Below, piece by piece: positions 6,879-24,566 of a stretch of DNA of 37,948 nucleotides (the first letter of the stretch is position 1; each line of letters begins with the position of its first letter). The notes below the pieces were generated by a model. That model was not told where the DNA came from and searched no databases. It was given only the letters and a program-made list of their open reading frames with translations. The stretch comes from Candidatus Rokuibacteriota bacterium (GTDB lineage Bacteria; Methylomirabilota; Methylomirabilia; Rokubacteriales; CSP1-6), in NCBI GenBank assembly GCA_016209385.1, contig JACQWB010000308.1, positions 1-37,948 on the forward strand, in the 5' to 3' direction. Position numbers and translations under genes: made by a program.

Positions 6879-7832
6879 CTACACCGCTTCCTCGACGACT
6901 CCCATCCGCCTGAACTTCTCCTGCCGCTGCCGGACCAGCTCCTCGGGCGGCTTTGAGCGAAGCCCCCAGAGCTGATCTTTGAGGGCCTGCTTCACGGCGG
7001 CGGCAGTCGCTTCCCAGTTCCGGTGCGCGCCACCGACGGGCTCCGGCACGATCCCGTCGATGACCCCGAGCCGCAGCAGGTCCGGAGCGCTGAGCCGGAG
7101 GAGCTCCGCGGCTTCCGGAGCCCGGGAGGCATCCCCCCACAGGATCGCCGCACACCCTTCCGGCGAGATCACCGAGTAGATCGCGTACTCGAGCATCAGC
7201 ACGCGGTCGCCGAGCGCGACGGCAAGCGCGCCCCCGCTCCCCCCCTCACCCGTCACCACGCAGACGATCGGGGTCCGGAGCGCGGCCATTTCCGCAAGGT
7301 TCCGCGCGATCGCCTGGGCCTGGCCGCGCTCTTCGGCGCCGACCCCGGGAAACGCGCCCGGCGTGTCGACGAACGTGAAGACCGGCTTCGCGAACTTTTC
7401 GGCGAGCTTCATCAGCCGCAGCGCCTTCCGGTACCCCTCGGGATGCGGCATCCCGAAGTTCCGCGCGAGGTTCTCACGCGTATCCCGCCCCTTCTGGTGC
7501 CCGAGGACGACCAGCGACTCGCCTTCGAACCGCGCGAGCCCCCCAACGATGGCCTTGTCGTCGCCGTACAGCCGGTCGCCGTGGAGCTCGACGAAGTCGT
7601 CCAGGATCAGCTTGAAGAAGTCCAGGGTACGGGGACGCTTGGGGTGGCGGGCGAGCTGTGTCCGTTGCCACGCGGTGAGGTTCGCGTAGATCTTGTGCTG
7701 GAGTCGGGCGAGGCGCTCCTCGAGGCGCAGGATCTCGTCGCGCGCCGCAAGCGGGTCCTGGCCGGCCCGGAGCTCCGCGATCCGGGTCTCCAGGTCCAGA
7801 ATCGGCTTCTCGAAGTCAACGTCCGCGCGCAT
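6879..7832 (-). CDS. accA: Acetyl-CoA carboxylase carboxyltransferase subunit alpha
   Basis: A 317-residue AccA, which with AccD transfers the carboxyl group from carboxybiotin-AccB to acetyl-CoA in the first step of fatty acid synthesis. An N-terminal helical segment ([20 protein letters not shown]) is followed by the crotonase-fold core with [57 protein letters not shown] and [14 protein letters not shown]. Length matches the family. The ATG at 7832 overlaps the 3' end of dnaE by 17 bases, the dnaE-accA order seen in many bacteria. No accD or accBC is in the window, but birA, whose product biotinylates AccB, lies about 10 kb away on the same strand. Confidence 0.97.
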
Positions 7833-10800
7833 GCTCGACGAGGAGACTCCCCGGCCCCAGCAGGGCTTCCACCTTCGTCGTTAGCTCCGGGACGGGGTCC
7901 ACAGATAGCTCCCGGGCCAGGATCACTACCTCCTGCTCGGGAAGGAGCAGGTGCAGAAACAGCGGCACGCTCCCGCGATGCTCGGCGCAACAGGCCCTGA
8001 TCTGCTCCAGGAGCGTGTCGGCATCCCCCCGGACGCGAACGCGGATCCGGCACGCGCGAGGCAACGGGCCGGGATCGAACGGATCCGGCGGGCTCACCGC
8101 CGGCACGCGCTCCTCCACGAGGGGGCGGATGTCTTCCGCCAGCACGACCCGTCCCCGCTCGGTCTCGTCCACCCGTCCCCTGACCAGAATCGGCTCCCGC
8201 GAGCGGAGGAGCGGCGCCGCGGTGCGGAACGGACCCGGGAACACCGTCAGCTCGACGCTTCCCTCCAGATCCTCCAGCGTCGCGAAGGCCATCCGCTCGC
8301 CGCTCTTGGTCGGGATCTCCTTGAGCGCGGTGACGTGGCCGAAGAGCACGATCCGCGAGCCGGGACTGCGCCCTTCCAGCTCACCGATCGAGGTGACACC
8401 GACGCGTTCGGCCAGAACCTTGAATCGGGTCAGCGGGTGACCGGAGAGGTAGAATCCGAGCACCTCCTTCTCGTAGGCCAAGAGCTGGTCGCTCTCCCAC
8501 TCGGGGACCGAGTCTGGGGTTTCCGATTCCGGAGGTGGCGGGCGCAGCGACGGGGCTGAGGGTGCCGGACCGCGCTCCCCGTCGCGCATCAGATCAAACA
8601 GCGAGGTCTGCCCCTGCTGACGGTCGCGCTGGTGGCGCTGCCCGGCCTCGATGGCCTCGTCCAGGGAGGCGAGCAGCTCGGCGCGGGGCATGCCGAGCGA
8701 GTCGAAGGTGCCAGCCTTGATCAGGCTCTCGATCACGCGCCGGTTCACGAGGCGCAGGTCGACCCGGCTGCAGAAGTCCGCCAGCGACGCGAACGGGCCG
8801 CGCTCCTCGCGCGTCTTCAGGATCGAGGCGATCGCGGCTTCGCCCACGTTCTTGATGGCGGCCAGGCCGAACCGGATCGCCGTCCTGACCACGCTGAACT
8901 GGATGCCCGAGGAGTTCACGTCGGGCGGCAGCACCTGAATTCCCATCGCCCGGCACTCGTCGATGTACGTGACGATCTTGTCCGTGTCGCCCGTCTCGGA
9001 GGTAAGCAGGGCTGCCATGAACTCGACCGGGTAGTTCGCCTTGAGATAGGCGGTCTGGTACGCAACCATCGCGTACGCCGCACCGTGCGAGTTGTGGACG
9101 ACAACACCATTGGCAATGAAGCTCTTTGCCCCCGGCACCTCGAAGTCATAGGTCGGCTCGGAGCCTTCCAGGGTGAACGCTTTGGGTCTGGACCAGCCGA
9201 CGGAGGATCGTGACAGCGCGTCGAGCTGGGGCGACTCGAGCCGCTCGGCTAGGTACTCGAGCGTGTCCCGACGAATCCCCAGTTTCCTCCGGTCGGCAAA
9301 GAGCAATCCGTATGCGAGCCCGAGGTCCCGACAGCCTGCCTTGAGGCTTGGATACCGTTTCAGGATCGCTTCTCGGAGCTGTGGCCGGTAGAGTTCGGCC
9401 GGGATAATGTCCACGCTCCCGCGCGCGAGCAGCCTCCGCATACCTGCGTAGGAGTCCACGAGCTTGGCGAGCGCCGTCCGCTTTTTCCCAACCAGGCTCG
9501 GACCCACGAGTGTTTGGAACCGCCGGTACGCGGATCGGCCCCCGAGCAGGTTGACCGTGTACCCGACCCGCCGCCCGCCACGGTAGGAGAACACCTTCCG
9601 GTGAATCGTCGACGACAGACCGAGCTTGAGGAGGAGGCGGCGGACATCCTGTGCGAGCCCTTCGGATGATGTGGCGTAAAAGATGGATCGCGTGCCGGGG
9701 TGGATGCACCCATCGCCCTGGAACAGCTTCCCGACAAGCACCGCGATGACGTCCTGACTCCACCGGTCTACCAGCGGCGGGACCCGCTTCGTCAGCGCCC
9801 TCTTGCCCTGCAATCCGCACTCATGGAAGAGGAACTCCACGGCTCCGGACGGACGCTTTGGATTAATTCGCACGGGACGGACCGATCGGGTGCTCCGGTC
9901 GGCACGAGCCTCGACCCGGGGGGAGGTATTCGGGAAGGCGGAGAGGATCGCCTCCATGTCCCCGATCTCGTCCGGGTCCTTGGAGTAGAGGTAGAAATGG
10001 CCTTCGTAGCCCAGGCTCCCCTCCGCAAGGGCGTAGCCGAGCAGGGCCGGGAGGTGTGACGGGACCCGCTGGCTCCCACAGGGGAGCTCGCGCACCACCG
10101 CCACGAAATCGCGCGCGGTGAGGTCCTCCGTGCTCACCCATCCGCGCTGGGTGAAGAGCGGATGATCGGCGGTGCAGCGCAGCGTCATGCCGTTGGCAAG
10201 CCTGAGGCGGCCGACCCGTCTGGTTCCGCTCGGCCTGACGCCGGACGCACGGAACGGCCCGTCCTTTGTCAGGACAACGTCTCCTGCTCGGACCTCGGTG
10301 ATCGGCTTCAGCGTGCCGTCGGCCATCTCGATCAGGACGTCGGCGGTGACGCACTTGTTGAAGCCGTAGCCGGCGAACTTTTCCATCATGTCCCAGATCT
10401 TCTCGGCCTTCTTCTCCAGGACGCCATGCGCCTTGCATCCCTCAACAAACTTACGCCGCTGTTGGACCATGAGCTCTCGGTCCTTCTTCCCCATGGCGCG
10501 GCGGAGCGTGTCGGCCTCGCCCATCGTGAAGCCGGCCATCTCCGAAGCGATCTGCATCACCTGCTCCTGGTAGAGCATGATCCCGTACGTCTCGCGCAGG
10601 TACTTCTCCATCAGCGGGTGCTCGTAGGCGATCTTCGAGCGCCCGTGCCGCCGGTTGATGAACTCCGGGATCAGCTCCATGGGGCCCGGCCGGTAGAGAG
10701 AGACGATGGCGATCAGGTCTTCCAGGCGCTCGGGCTTGAGGCCCCGCAGGATGTCGCGCATCCCCGGGGACTCGAGCTGGAACACGCCGAAGGTCTTGGC

Positions 10801-12600
10801 CTCGGAGAGCAGCTGGTAGGTCTTCGTGTCGTCCAAAGGAATCGCATCCGGGTCGAAGGAGAGCCCCCGGGTGGCGGCGACCAGCTTCGCGGTGTTCGCG
10901 ATCACGGTGAGGGTCCGCAGCCCGAGGAAGTCCATCTTCAGGAGGCCGATCCTCTCGATCGCCTCCATGGCGTAGCCGGTCACGATCTCGTTCTTCTTGG
11001 GATCCTTGTAGAGCGGGATGTGCTCGACCAGGGGCTCGTCCGAGATCACCACGCCCGCCGCGTGGGTCGAGGCGTGGCGGGTACACCCCTCGAGCGCCCT
11101 GGCGACCTCCCAGAGCTCGGCTACCTCGGGTTGGCTCCGCACCAGCTCCGCCAGGGCCGGCGACTTGGAGAGCGCCTCCTCCAGGGTGATATTGAGCTGG
11201 TTGGGCACCAGCTTGGCGATCCGGTCGACCTCGTTGTAGGCTATCCCGAGCGCGCGGCCGACGTCACGGATCACGGCTTTGGCCCCGAGCGTCCCGAAGG
11301 TGATGATCTGGGCCACGTTCTCCCTGCCGTATCGGGTGGCGACGTACTCGATCACCTCGTCCCGGCGGTCGTCGGAAAAGTCGATGTCCATATCGGGCAT
11401 CGAGACGCGCTCGGGGTTCAGGAAGCGCTCGAAGAGGAGACCGTAACGCGTCGGATCGATGCTGGTGATCCCGAGGGAGTACGCCGTGACCGAGCCGGCC
11501 GAGGAGCCGCGTCCCGGCCCGACCGCGATGCCCCGGGACTTCGCGAAGCGGATGAAGTCCCACACGACCAGGAAGTAGCCGGCGAAGCCCATCTTCTCGA
11601 TGACCGCGAGCTCGTGCTTCAGCCGATCCGCGACCGCGTCCGGTGGTGAGGCCCCGTACCGGCGGCGGAGCCCCTCCCAGGCCAGCTGCTCCAGGTAGCT
11701 CTCGGCCGAGTGCCCCGCCGGAACCTGATAGCGGGGTAGGTGGAACTGGTCGAAGGCCAGCTCGAGGTTGCAGCGCTCGGCGACAGCCAGGCTGTTCCGG
11801 TAGGCCTCCGGCACTTCCGTGAACACCTGGCGCATCTCTTCGGCGGCCTTCAGGTAGAAGTGCTCGGAGGAGAAGCGCCACCGGTTCGGATCCCGGACGG
11901 TCGTTCCGGTCTGAATGCAGAGGAGCACCTCGTGGGCCCGCGCGTGGCCAGCTTCGAGGTAGTGGGAGTCGTTGGTCCCGACGACGGGAGCACCGATCGC
12001 CCGGCCGATCCTCAGCGTCCCCTCGGTCACCCTCGGCTGCTCGGGGAGGCCGTGGGACTGGACCTCCATGAAGTAGTAGTCCTTCCCGAAGACCTCCTGG
12101 TGCCACCCGGCGACTTCGCGAGCCTTCCGCTCCTCGCCCTGCGAGAGCAGGCGCGAGACCTCCGAGTTCAAGCACCCGGACAGGGCGACGAGCCCGTGGG
12201 CGTGCTGGGCGAGGAGCTCCCGATCCACGCGCGGCTTGTAGTAGAAGCCTTCGAGGTATGCCTTCGAGACAAGCTTGATCAGGTTCTGATAGCCCTGACG
12301 GTTCCGGGCGAGGACCGTCAGGTGGTTAGCGCCTTCGTACTGACCGTCCACGTTGGCCCGCCCGAACCGGCTGCCCGGGGCGACGTAGAGCTCGGCGCCG
12401 ATGATGGGCTTGATCCCGGCCTTCTGGCACGCCAGATAGAAATCGATGGCGCCGAAGAGGTTACCGTGGTCGGTCAGGGCCAGCGCGGGGAAGCGGAGCT
12501 CCCGCGCCCGCGCGACCAGCGCGTCCAGGCGGCTGGCGCCGTCGAGGAGGCTGTACTCGGAGTGCACATGGAGGTGGACGAAATCCGCGTGCTCCCGCAT
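7816..12600 (-). CDS. dnaE: DNA polymerase III subunit alpha, interrupted by an intein
   Basis: The 1594-codon frame encodes the replicative polymerase alpha subunit plus an in-frame intein (residues 750-1170). After splicing the polymerase is 1173 residues, normal for DnaE. The PHP domain opens the protein ([20 protein letters not shown], then [14 protein letters not shown]). The polymerase core has [18 protein letters not shown] and the catalytic aspartates in [15 protein letters not shown] (about residue 400). The finger region carries GYGFNK and [17 protein letters not shown] on either side of the intein. A C-terminal OB fold (about 1400-1490, [10 protein letters not shown] to VELTVFP) follows. 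Its start is 7 bases after the BtuF-like gene and its end overlaps accA. Expression of active polymerase depends on splicing, because the intein splits a conserved polymerase motif. Confidence 0.96.
9091..10353 (-). mobile_element. DnaE intein with LAGLIDADG homing endonuclease domain
   Basis: A 421-residue class 1 intein inside DnaE. It begins with Cys1 (block [21 protein letters not shown]). Block B follows with [12 protein letters not shown], the TxxH residues needed for the N-S shift step. The endonuclease domain has two LAGLIDADG-like helices, [15 protein letters not shown] and [15 protein letters not shown], with acidic residues Glu and Asp at the expected ends. Block F/G is [21 protein letters not shown], ending in the His-Asn pair, and the first residue of the C-extein is Ser. 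Everything required for splicing appears intact and both endonuclease motifs are present, so it may still be mobile. It sits between FNK and SHGAAYA of the polymerase. Confidence 0.95.
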
Positions 12601-21190: not shown

Positions 21191-22246
21191 TCACGGGACG
21201 CGTCCGGCGCCGGCGAAGCGCCAGCCGTTCGCCGTCCGCCGGAAGCGCAGGGCCCACGGCCGCGGGTCACCCGGCGCCGTGGCTGAGACCGTGACCAGCT
21301 CGGGATTCGGATCGTCGGCGACGTCGCAAACGGGCTCGGGCTCGAGAACCTCCGGAAGGTTCTGGCGAAGCTCGGGCGACAGGCCGAGCGCCGAGAGGAC
21401 CCGCTGCTCCCCTCGCCTGAGCGCTCCGAGCAGGCGGTCCACGACGGCGTGGAGCTCCCGGTGCCAGCCGTTCGACACCTGGCGGCGAACGAGGACGAAG
21501 GTCTCGGAAGCCGCGAGATACCGGTAGTAATCCACCTGCTCGGTCTGGCCCTCGCACCCGAGCTTCCATCCCGGGTAACGCGCTTCGGAACGAACCGCGA
21601 GCTCCTGGCCGCGGACCTCGAAGGCGATCGGCGAGAGGTCAGCGCCGAGCAGCTCCGCCGTGCTCCACACAGCCCGAACCTGCTCCCCCTGCTGGCGCCA
21701 CAGCTCGATGCCCAGCACGGGCACCCCGCGCCGCGCGGGCGAGCCCTGCCACACGACGAGAAACTGGCCCTGGCCCGCGCGCGTGGGTGGCATCGGGAAG
21801 AGGTGCGGCACCCCCGGTCGATGGATTGCCGTGACGAGTTCCGCCCCCCCGCCCCGCCGGTAGACGCGCACACTGTTGCCCGATCCTCCCACCGAGAGCT
21901 GAAAGCTGCCGACGGCGACGTCTCCCGCCGCGAGGTGGACGATCCGGAAGGCGCTCCCACCCCAGGTGTCGGCGAAGGCGTCGAGCCGGTCCTGGAGGAA
22001 GCCCGCGGAGGCGAAGACGCTCCCCGCATTCAGGTTCTCGATGATCTCGTCATCCAGGAGCGCGTAGATCTCGCGGACACCCTCGACCGAGGACTCCGGC
22101 CCCGAGAGCTCGAGGATCGCGAGCCGCGAGGACGCGAGCTGCCGGAAACGGTCCAGCCGGTCACCCTCGGCGGCCGGGGCTGGGCCGGGTGAGGAGCCGA
22201 TCGCCAGCCAGACCGCCAGGCAGCACGCGGAGGTTCGGAGCGTCAC
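21191..22246 (-). CDS. Secreted or periplasmic protein of unknown function
   Basis: A 351-residue protein from a GTG at 22246; a TTG at 22261 is the alternative. It starts with a Sec-type signal peptide (MTLRTSACCLAVWLAIGSSP, cleavage probably after PAPAA). The mature protein is mixed alpha/beta with no family I recognise. Segments include LAILELSGPESSVEGVREIY, FQLSVGGSGNSVRVYRRGGG and DYYRYLAASETFVLVRRQVS. Its C-terminal phrase WALRFRRTANGWRFAGAGRV resembles the end of small beta-sheet modules. It stands 40 bases upstream of valS on the same strand and diverges from lptFG with about 25 bases between start codons. Shared regulation with LPS export is possible but unproven. Confidence 0.6.
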   Translation of the reverse strand: MTLRTSACCLAVWLAIGSSPGPAPAAEGDRLDRFRQLASSRLAILELSGPESSVEGVREIYALLDDEIIENLNAGSVFASAGFLQDRLDAFADTWGGSAFRIVHLAAGDVAVGSFQLSVGGSGNSVRVYRRGGGAELVTAIHRPGVPHLFPMPPTRAGQGQFLVVWQGSPARRGVPVLGIELWRQQGEQVRAVWSTAELLGADLSPIAFEVRGQELAVRSEARYPGWKLGCEGQTEQVDYYRYLAASETFVLVRRQVSNGWHRELHAVVDRLLGALRRGEQRVLSALGLSPELRQNLPEVLEPEPVCDVADDPNPELVTVSATAPGDPRPWALRFRRTANGWRFAGAGRVP

Positions 22247-22271
22247 GGAGGTATGGTACAACAGGTGGGAG

Positions 22272-24566
22272 ATGAACCGGATCCTCGACCGCTACGTCTT
22301 CAGGGACCTGGCGCCGCCGCTCCTCCTAAGCGGGGTGCTCCTCACCTTCCTCCTCATTATCGACCGCATCTACCACCTCACCGACCTCGTCGTGACGAAG
22401 GGCGTGCCCTTCTCCATGGTGCTCGGGCTCCTCCTCTTCATGCTCCCCTCGTTCCTCGCCCATACACTCCCGATGGCGCTCCTGGTGGCCGTGTTGCTGA
22501 CGGCCGGCCGGCTGGCCGGAGACCTGGAAGTCGTGGCCCTCAAGGCCTCGGGCGTGAGCCCCCTCCGGCTCTTCCGCCCCTTCGTCGTCGCCGCCTGTCT
22601 CGCCACGCTCGCCACCGGCCTCCTGACGCTCTGGCTCAACCCGTTGGCCAACCGGGCCTTCCAGCGCCACCTGGTGAGGATCCTCCAGACCCGGGCGGCC
22701 ACCGGAATCTCCGAGCGCGTGTTCAGCACCACCTTCGGCCAGATCGTCGTCTACGTGGAGGAAGTGTCGCCCTCACACGTGGCCCTCGGGGGTGTCCTGG
22801 TCTCCGACGAGCGCGACCCGAAGCGATCGCGGATCATCACGGCCCGCGAAGGACGCCTCCTGACCGACGAGGAGAATGACCGCATCACGCTCCGCCTGAT
22901 CGACGGCGCCCTCAACGAATCGCCGGCGGGCGAGCCGGGGCGCTACCGCTACTCCACCTTCGAGCTCTATGACATGAACCTCGCGGTGGAGGCTCCGTTC
23001 AAAGGGGCACCGCGGGTCGAGAAGCCGGAGAAGTACCTGTCGCTCCGGCGACTCCTCGCGGCCGCGGCAACGCTCCGGCGCGAAGGGCAGAACCCCGCGC
23101 CGTACGAGGTGGAGGTCCACAAGCGCTTCGCGCTGCCCGTAGCCGCCCTGGTGTTCACCCTCGTCGGGTTCCCGCTCGGCATCCGCGCCCACACCGGCGG
23201 TCGTGCCATCGCCGTGGGCGGCAGCCTGGCCATCATCGTGGCGTACTACTTCCTGCTCACCTCGCTGGAGGGAATCGCGCTCGTGCGCCGCCTCCCGTCC
23301 TGGGCGGCGATCTGGGCGCCGAACCTGCTCTTCGGCGGCGTCGGGTTGGTGCTGCTCCGGTCCACGATCGCGCCGCCGGTCCCGCTCGCTCGCTCGGCGC
23401 TCGTCAGGCGCCTCCGGGCCGTCCTGGTGTGGCGCCTCCCGATCGGGACGCTGAGGGCCGCGCGGATCGGCGGTCCCCGCGCGACGAGCTGGATCATCGA
23501 CCGCTACCTGGTCAGGGAGTATTTGACGTACCTCGGGTACGGCCTGGCGGTCGGCGCGGTGCTGTTCGTGATCGTGGACATCTTCCAGACGCTGGACCGG
23601 TTCCTCCGCCTCAAGCCGCCGCTCCACCTGATCGTCGAGCACCTCCTCTACCGCCTGCCCGCCGAGCTCTACAAGGGACTTCCGGTCGTGATCCTGGTCG
23701 CGACGATCTTCCTCTTCCTCTCGCTCGCGCGGGCGCACGAGTTGACGGCCCTGAAGGCGGCCGGCGTCAGCCTCTACCGGGTGAGCCGGCCAGTGCTACT
23801 CCTCGCCGTGGGCGTGAGCGCCGCGTCCGTGCTCTTCCAGGAGACGCTGTTGCCGATGCTGAACGCCAAGGCCGACGAGGTGGACCGGATCAAGATCCGC
23901 GGTGAGCCGCCTCGACACCTCCAGCGACGCAACCAGATCTGGTACCGGAGCGCGGACACCCGGTTTTTTAGGATGGAGCTCCTGGACCCGGCGGGCCAGG
24001 CCATCGACGGCCTCACGCTCCTGGAGATCGATCGGGACTACCGGCTCCTGAGCCGCCTCGACGCCCGCCAGGCGCGCTGGACCACCGCCGGGTGGGAGTT
24101 CCGTGACGGCGTCGTTCGAGAGTTCTCGGGCGGAGACCAGGTTCAAGCTATCCCCTTCCGCCTGACTACGCTGGAGCTCCCCGAGCGGATGGAGACGTTC
24201 ACCCAGATCCAGAAACCCACCGAGATGATGAACTTTCTGGAACTCAGGGCGTACCTGGCGCGGCTCCAGGAGAGCGGGCACCAGGTCGGCAAGTACATCG
24301 TGAAGCTCTACGAGAAGCTAGCCTTCCCCCTGATCCACGCCGTCCTCGCGCTGGTCGCGATCCCGCTCGCCCTCGCCTCGCCGCGGAGCGGGCGCTTGAT
24401 CGGCATCGGGCTGGCGATCGTGATCGCGATGGCCTACTGGTTCGTCCACTCGCTGGCGCTCTCCTTCGCCAAGGCGGACATGCTGCCGCCGCTCCTGGCC
24501 GCGTGGACCGCGAACATCATCTTCGCGGGCCTGGGGCTCTCCCTGTTCCTCCGCGCCCGGACGTAG
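22272..24566 (+). CDS. lptFG: LptF-LptG fusion, LPS export ABC transporter permease
   Basis: A 764-residue protein made of two YjgP/YjgQ-family permeases in one chain. The LptF-like half (about 1-370) starts MNRILDRYVFRDLAPPLLLS and has three N-terminal transmembrane helices, a periplasmic beta-jellyroll region and three C-terminal helices. After a basic linker (about 372-403), the LptG-like half starts WIIDRYLVREYLTYLGYG and repeats the architecture to residue 764, ending in FAGLGLSLFLRART. LptF and LptG normally are separate subunits that, with LptB2, extract LPS from the inner membrane. The frame is continuous, with no internal stop or restart. This indicates an outer membrane with LPS-like glycolipid. 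The ATPase LptB and LptC are not in the window. Confidence 0.93.
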   Translation: MNRILDRYVFRDLAPPLLLSGVLLTFLLIIDRIYHLTDLVVTKGVPFSMVLGLLLFMLPSFLAHTLPMALLVAVLLTAGRLAGDLEVVALKASGVSPLRLFRPFVVAACLATLATGLLTLWLNPLANRAFQRHLVRILQTRAATGISERVFSTTFGQIVVYVEEVSPSHVALGGVLVSDERDPKRSRIITAREGRLLTDEENDRITLRLIDGALNESPAGEPGRYRYSTFELYDMNLAVEAPFKGAPRVEKPEKYLSLRRLLAAAATLRREGQNPAPYEVEVHKRFALPVAALVFTLVGFPLGIRAHTGGRAIAVGGSLAIIVAYYFLLTSLEGIALVRRLPSWAAIWAPNLLFGGVGLVLLRSTIAPPVPLARSALVRRLRAVLVWRLPIGTLRAARIGGPRATSWIIDRYLVREYLTYLGYGLAVGAVLFVIVDIFQTLDRFLRLKPPLHLIVEHLLYRLPAELYKGLPVVILVATIFLFLSLARAHELTALKAAGVSLYRVSRPVLLLAVGVSAASVLFQETLLPMLNAKADEVDRIKIRGEPPRHLQRRNQIWYRSADTRFFRMELLDPAGQAIDGLTLLEIDRDYRLLSRLDARQARWTTAGWEFRDGVVREFSGGDQVQAIPFRLTTLELPERMETFTQIQKPTEMMNFLELRAYLARLQESGHQVGKYIVKLYEKLAFPLIHAVLALVAIPLALASPRSGRLIGIGLAIVIAMAYWFVHSLALSFAKADMLPPLLAAWTANIIFAGLGLSLFLRART

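Follow-up and report, generated by a model that had tools for sequence, protein, structure and literature searches.

A lineage-wide fusion of lptF and lptG in Rokubacteria

LptB2FG is a type VI ABC transporter that extracts lipopolysaccharide (LPS) from the inner membrane, and split lptF and lptG genes are the usual state. In the window analysed here, a whole stretch of 37,948 nucleotides from a Candidatus Rokuibacteriota genome, both subunits are specified by one open reading frame. This raises the question of whether the joined frame is a real, inherited gene, and of what transporter its product would form.

A single frame with two permease halves

Translation of the window gave an ATG-started frame of 764 codons at 22272..24566 (+), ending in TAG and without an internal stop, within a stop-to-stop open frame of 832 aa. 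The Pfam family PF03739 matches the product (here lptFG) twice, with 545.9 bits in all, and each half passes the curated cut-off of its own NCBIfam equivalog over nearly the full model. Residues 4–363 match TIGR04407 (LptF; 354.7 bits against a cut-off of 230, model positions 1–346 of 347), and residues 408–761 match TIGR04408 (LptG; 374.3 bits against 240, positions 1–350 of 351). The LptF half thus lies at 22281..23360 (+) and the LptG half at 23493..24554 (+), bearing out the first-pass annotation, which had proposed two complete permease halves in a single frame. No second PF03739 gene was found at E <= 0.001 in the whole window genome (4.57 Mb, 95% complete), so lptFG is the sole candidate there for either subunit. 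LptB2FG usually has LptF and LptG as separate chains, which its function does not require. Here they are replaced by one open frame; separate versus single chain is the variation seen at this locus, not a defining trait of the LptB2FG family. A divergent gene on the minus strand (21191–22261), which probably encodes a signal peptide and matches no Pfam family, has its ORF start about 10 bases from lptFG.

The fold of the product was assessed with an AlphaFold2 model built with 30 fused sequences (mean pLDDT 80.9; pTM 0.71, which gives only moderate confidence in how the two halves are placed against each other). Each half of the predicted model exhibits the six helices and periplasmic beta domain of the Lpt fold, as the annotation had anticipated. 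Membrane helices are modelled at residues 2–43, 47–84, 97–144, 276–305, 311–337 and 343–366 of the LptF half, with strands at 158–238, and at residues 402–447, 451–487, 501–542, 673–702, 708–734 and 740–763 of the LptG half, with strands at 557–634. The top 30 Foldseek matches, which include LptF chains for the LptF half, are all LptF and LptG chains drawn from solved structures of LptB2FG, with TM-scores by target of 0.59–0.88 and sequence identities of 13–22% in the structural alignments. The coupling-helix glutamates (E. coli LptF E84 and LptG E88), whose role has been described (PMC10094684), are both present. E86 (22527..22529, +) aligns with LptF E84 in a phmmer alignment to 7efo_F (offset 2), E490 (23739..23741, +) is the equivalent of LptG E88, and both are invariant in the 30 fused proteins.

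Distribution and origin of the fused gene

A joined frame can also be produced when an assembly or base-calling artefact removes the stop between two genes. The window genome is a draft of 310 contigs, and a similar-looking but damaged joint, with LptG lacking about 50 N-terminal residues, was seen in one relative (G049, locus L073). Loci of relatives were fetched as DNA, translated directly and split at every stop, and the counts given here are of such genomes only. We observed a stop-free LptF–LptG junction, with diverged and in-frame linkers, in 34 more genomes belonging to this order (Rokubacteria), in families f1, f3 and f4. The survey refutes the artefact explanation, to which we give essentially no credence, and the fusion also survives the other objection raised at the outset, a stop and restart near codons 370–405.

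Across the order the linkers are 37–52 residues long and always in frame, with 7–17 R/K and 0–5 D/E, and their third-position GC of 0.82–1.00 in the fused genomes is coding-like. The nearest named relative, also a Candidatus Rokuibacteriota (L023/L058, same contig), is fused and 58% identical to the window protein. In f3 the fused frame runs to the contig end inside LptG. In one of the 34 genomes (G006) the LptG part is frameshifted downstream of the junction, and in a further genome beyond the 34 (G023) the linker is intact and the frameshift lies inside LptF. At L042 the automatic linker cut failed, and alignment reveals an ordinary linker. No intact split pair of the lptF–lptG type was found in the order. 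Two genomes each contain two different fused lptFG genes (L042/L043 in G019, L052/L053 in G029), reflecting duplication or mixed bins. A second, distant split PF03739 pair accompanies the standard one, fused or split, at L064, L065, L068 and L070, including two genomes with a fused gene (G015, L064; G033, L065); this second pair may export another lipid.

In families f5–f9 of the same class, lptF and lptG are two adjacent genes that overlap or lie within about 100 bases of each other. The comparison of related genomes that the annotation had called for thus reveals a real lineage difference, fused in f1, f3 and f4 and split in f5–f9. The split pairs of these sister families (G039–G059), the nearest relatives outside the order, have the same gene order and strand as the two halves of lptFG. 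They differ in that LptF has its own stop and LptG its own ATG, both of which the fused gene lacks. In the split relatives LptG begins directly at M-RILDRYL, and the LptF tail (GREAFLPARL..., e.g. GREAFLPARLRTAIR) is comparable with the opening of the fused linker (REWR.P...LWR, e.g. TAREWRWPAMPRLWR). L073, on the minus strand in family f8, is a 702-aa frame in which LptF is joined directly to the truncated LptG; the other members of its family are split, and the locus reflects a deletion, gene breakage or an assembly error. It was not counted as a fusion, as the LptG start region is absent.

In trees of each half, the fused forms fall in one clade apart from the split forms, with 100/100 support. 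Two loci labelled "split" inside the fused clade (L062, L063) are explained by a frameshift inside LptF and a contig end, respectively, and the linker frame is intact in both. Both trees are consistent with a single ancestral fusion. Since the trees were rooted for drawing only, the direction from split to fused is taken from the usual state of these genes. The two neighbouring genes would have been joined in the order's ancestor when lptF lost its stop. LptF would have kept its C-terminal tail, and the spacer and LptG start would have become the linker, a short basic stretch replacing the start codon. Stop loss with tail retention would be the simplest history. A KMSKS-type tRNA synthetase frame is found near lptFG at several fused loci (f1, f3, f4), and the window has valS; this recurring neighbour suggests a shared ancestral setting.

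No verified fusion was found in the other phyla sampled, either among 69 Verrucomicrobiota genomes, where no joined pair was seen, or among 70 Pseudomonadota genomes. Four of the 70 Pseudomonadota had apparent joined frames of 760–799 aa and were rejected, since the fetched DNA has one in-frame stop (TGA, TGA, TAG or TAA) between the genes. These loci (L098–L101) are tandem, in-frame lptF–lptG pairs parted by that single stop, and open-frame length from the survey table is misleading for them, as each is listed as one frame. No report describing an LptF–LptG fusion was found in searches of open-access full texts. Events that join two transmembrane domains of an ABC transporter are well known, so any novelty here lies in a lineage-wide variant. 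The lptFG gene is a real, inherited fusion across a whole order of uncultured bacteria, in a machine that is otherwise ordinary, and its gene structure marks the order cleanly.

The linker and the integrity of the chain

The linker (residues 364–404; 23361..23483, +) is about 41 residues long in the window protein. It consists of the LptF C-terminal tail, which includes a short modelled helix at 373–387 (pLDDT blocks near 60), followed by a low-confidence basic stretch at 389–401 (pLDDT below 50). The amphipathicity of the helix is nothing unusual, with 66% of shuffles as high. The join had been placed near codons 370–405; it does fall in that region, and its limits are refined here to about 364–407, with LptG helix 1 starting from about 402. 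The accompanying description of a basic cytoplasmic linker holds for its charge (8 R/K, zero D/E), and the cytoplasmic side is expected from topology. In the known Lpt topology the helices of each half begin and finish on the cytoplasmic side, so a linker of this length should reach amply.

Translation starting inside the linker would allow the fused frame to be read also, or mainly, as two proteins, with a separate LptG being made. GTG codon 386 (23427..23429, +) is the sole ATG/GTG/TTG codon in the window linker, and most relatives have some in-frame ATG or GTG in theirs. However, the position of the candidate codons varies from genome to genome, several linkers (L027, L029, L038, L043) have no start codon, and no conserved internal start was found across the fused genomes. 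Moreover, no purine-rich ribosome-binding site was seen just upstream of GTG 386, and the M-RILDRYL start is lost in the fused forms, making separate production of LptG very unlikely. A second route to two proteins is cleavage, in which one chain is made and then cut in the linker, yielding an ordinary LptF/LptG heterodimer. A linker that is basic, of low confidence in the model and variable in sequence is compatible with this, but its alignment contains no conserved cleavage motif, and we regard such processing as highly improbable. We infer that the lptFG product functions as one uncleaved chain.

The transporter and its partners

The locus very probably encodes the transmembrane subunit of a normal LptB2FG-type LPS extractor, in which LptF and LptG, fused head to tail, make up a single chain. 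The product would be a single 12-helix chain, with two pseudo-symmetric halves seated on an LptB dimer. Split LptF and LptG already assemble 1:1, one each per complex; the fixed 1:1 stoichiometry attributed to the fusion therefore follows from the single chain but is not a new property. Some ABC exporters carry two transmembrane domains on one chain, and lptFG shares this covalent joining with them, although its fold differs (type VI Lpt) and its LptB ATPase is separate. The fold, coupling glutamates and partner genes are those of the LptB2FG(C) complexes of E. coli, Klebsiella, Pseudomonas and Acinetobacter (6mhu, 7efo, 5x5y, 8frl), which in contrast have two chains where lptFG has one, with a cytoplasmic linker and only 13–22% identity.

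By analogy with E. coli, the fused chain would take up the LptC helix and hand LPS to LptC–LptA–LptD. The linker would lead, in the cytoplasm, to LptG helix 1, which would help form the LptC-binding gate; LptF TM5 and LptG TM1 act in the gate (PMC10094684). A covalent tie between the LptF C-terminus and LptG helix 1, which forms one side of this gate, could bias or limit gate opening. Rokubacteria would then use an altered cycle of LptC/LPS entry, established when the order arose, a proposal we consider unlikely. As a single-chain form of a normal extractor, lptFG would be a natural version of an essential antibiotic target, and, because one half could be altered without mixed assembly, it could ease study of the asymmetric contributions that LptF and LptG make.

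Elsewhere in the genome, a gene cluster contains lptC, an lptA-like ORF, lptB and an rpoN-like ORF. LptB is over its family cut-off (350.4 bits), LptC retains its N-terminal hydrophobic helix, and the lptA-like ORF between lptC and lptB is called from position and reading only. As lptD and, for lipid A synthesis, lpxC were also found, the components of a standard LPS export pathway are present. Elsewhere in the window, the gene at 7816–12600 (-) encodes a DNA polymerase III alpha subunit with an intein at about residues 750–1170, which has LAGLIDADG and splicing domains.
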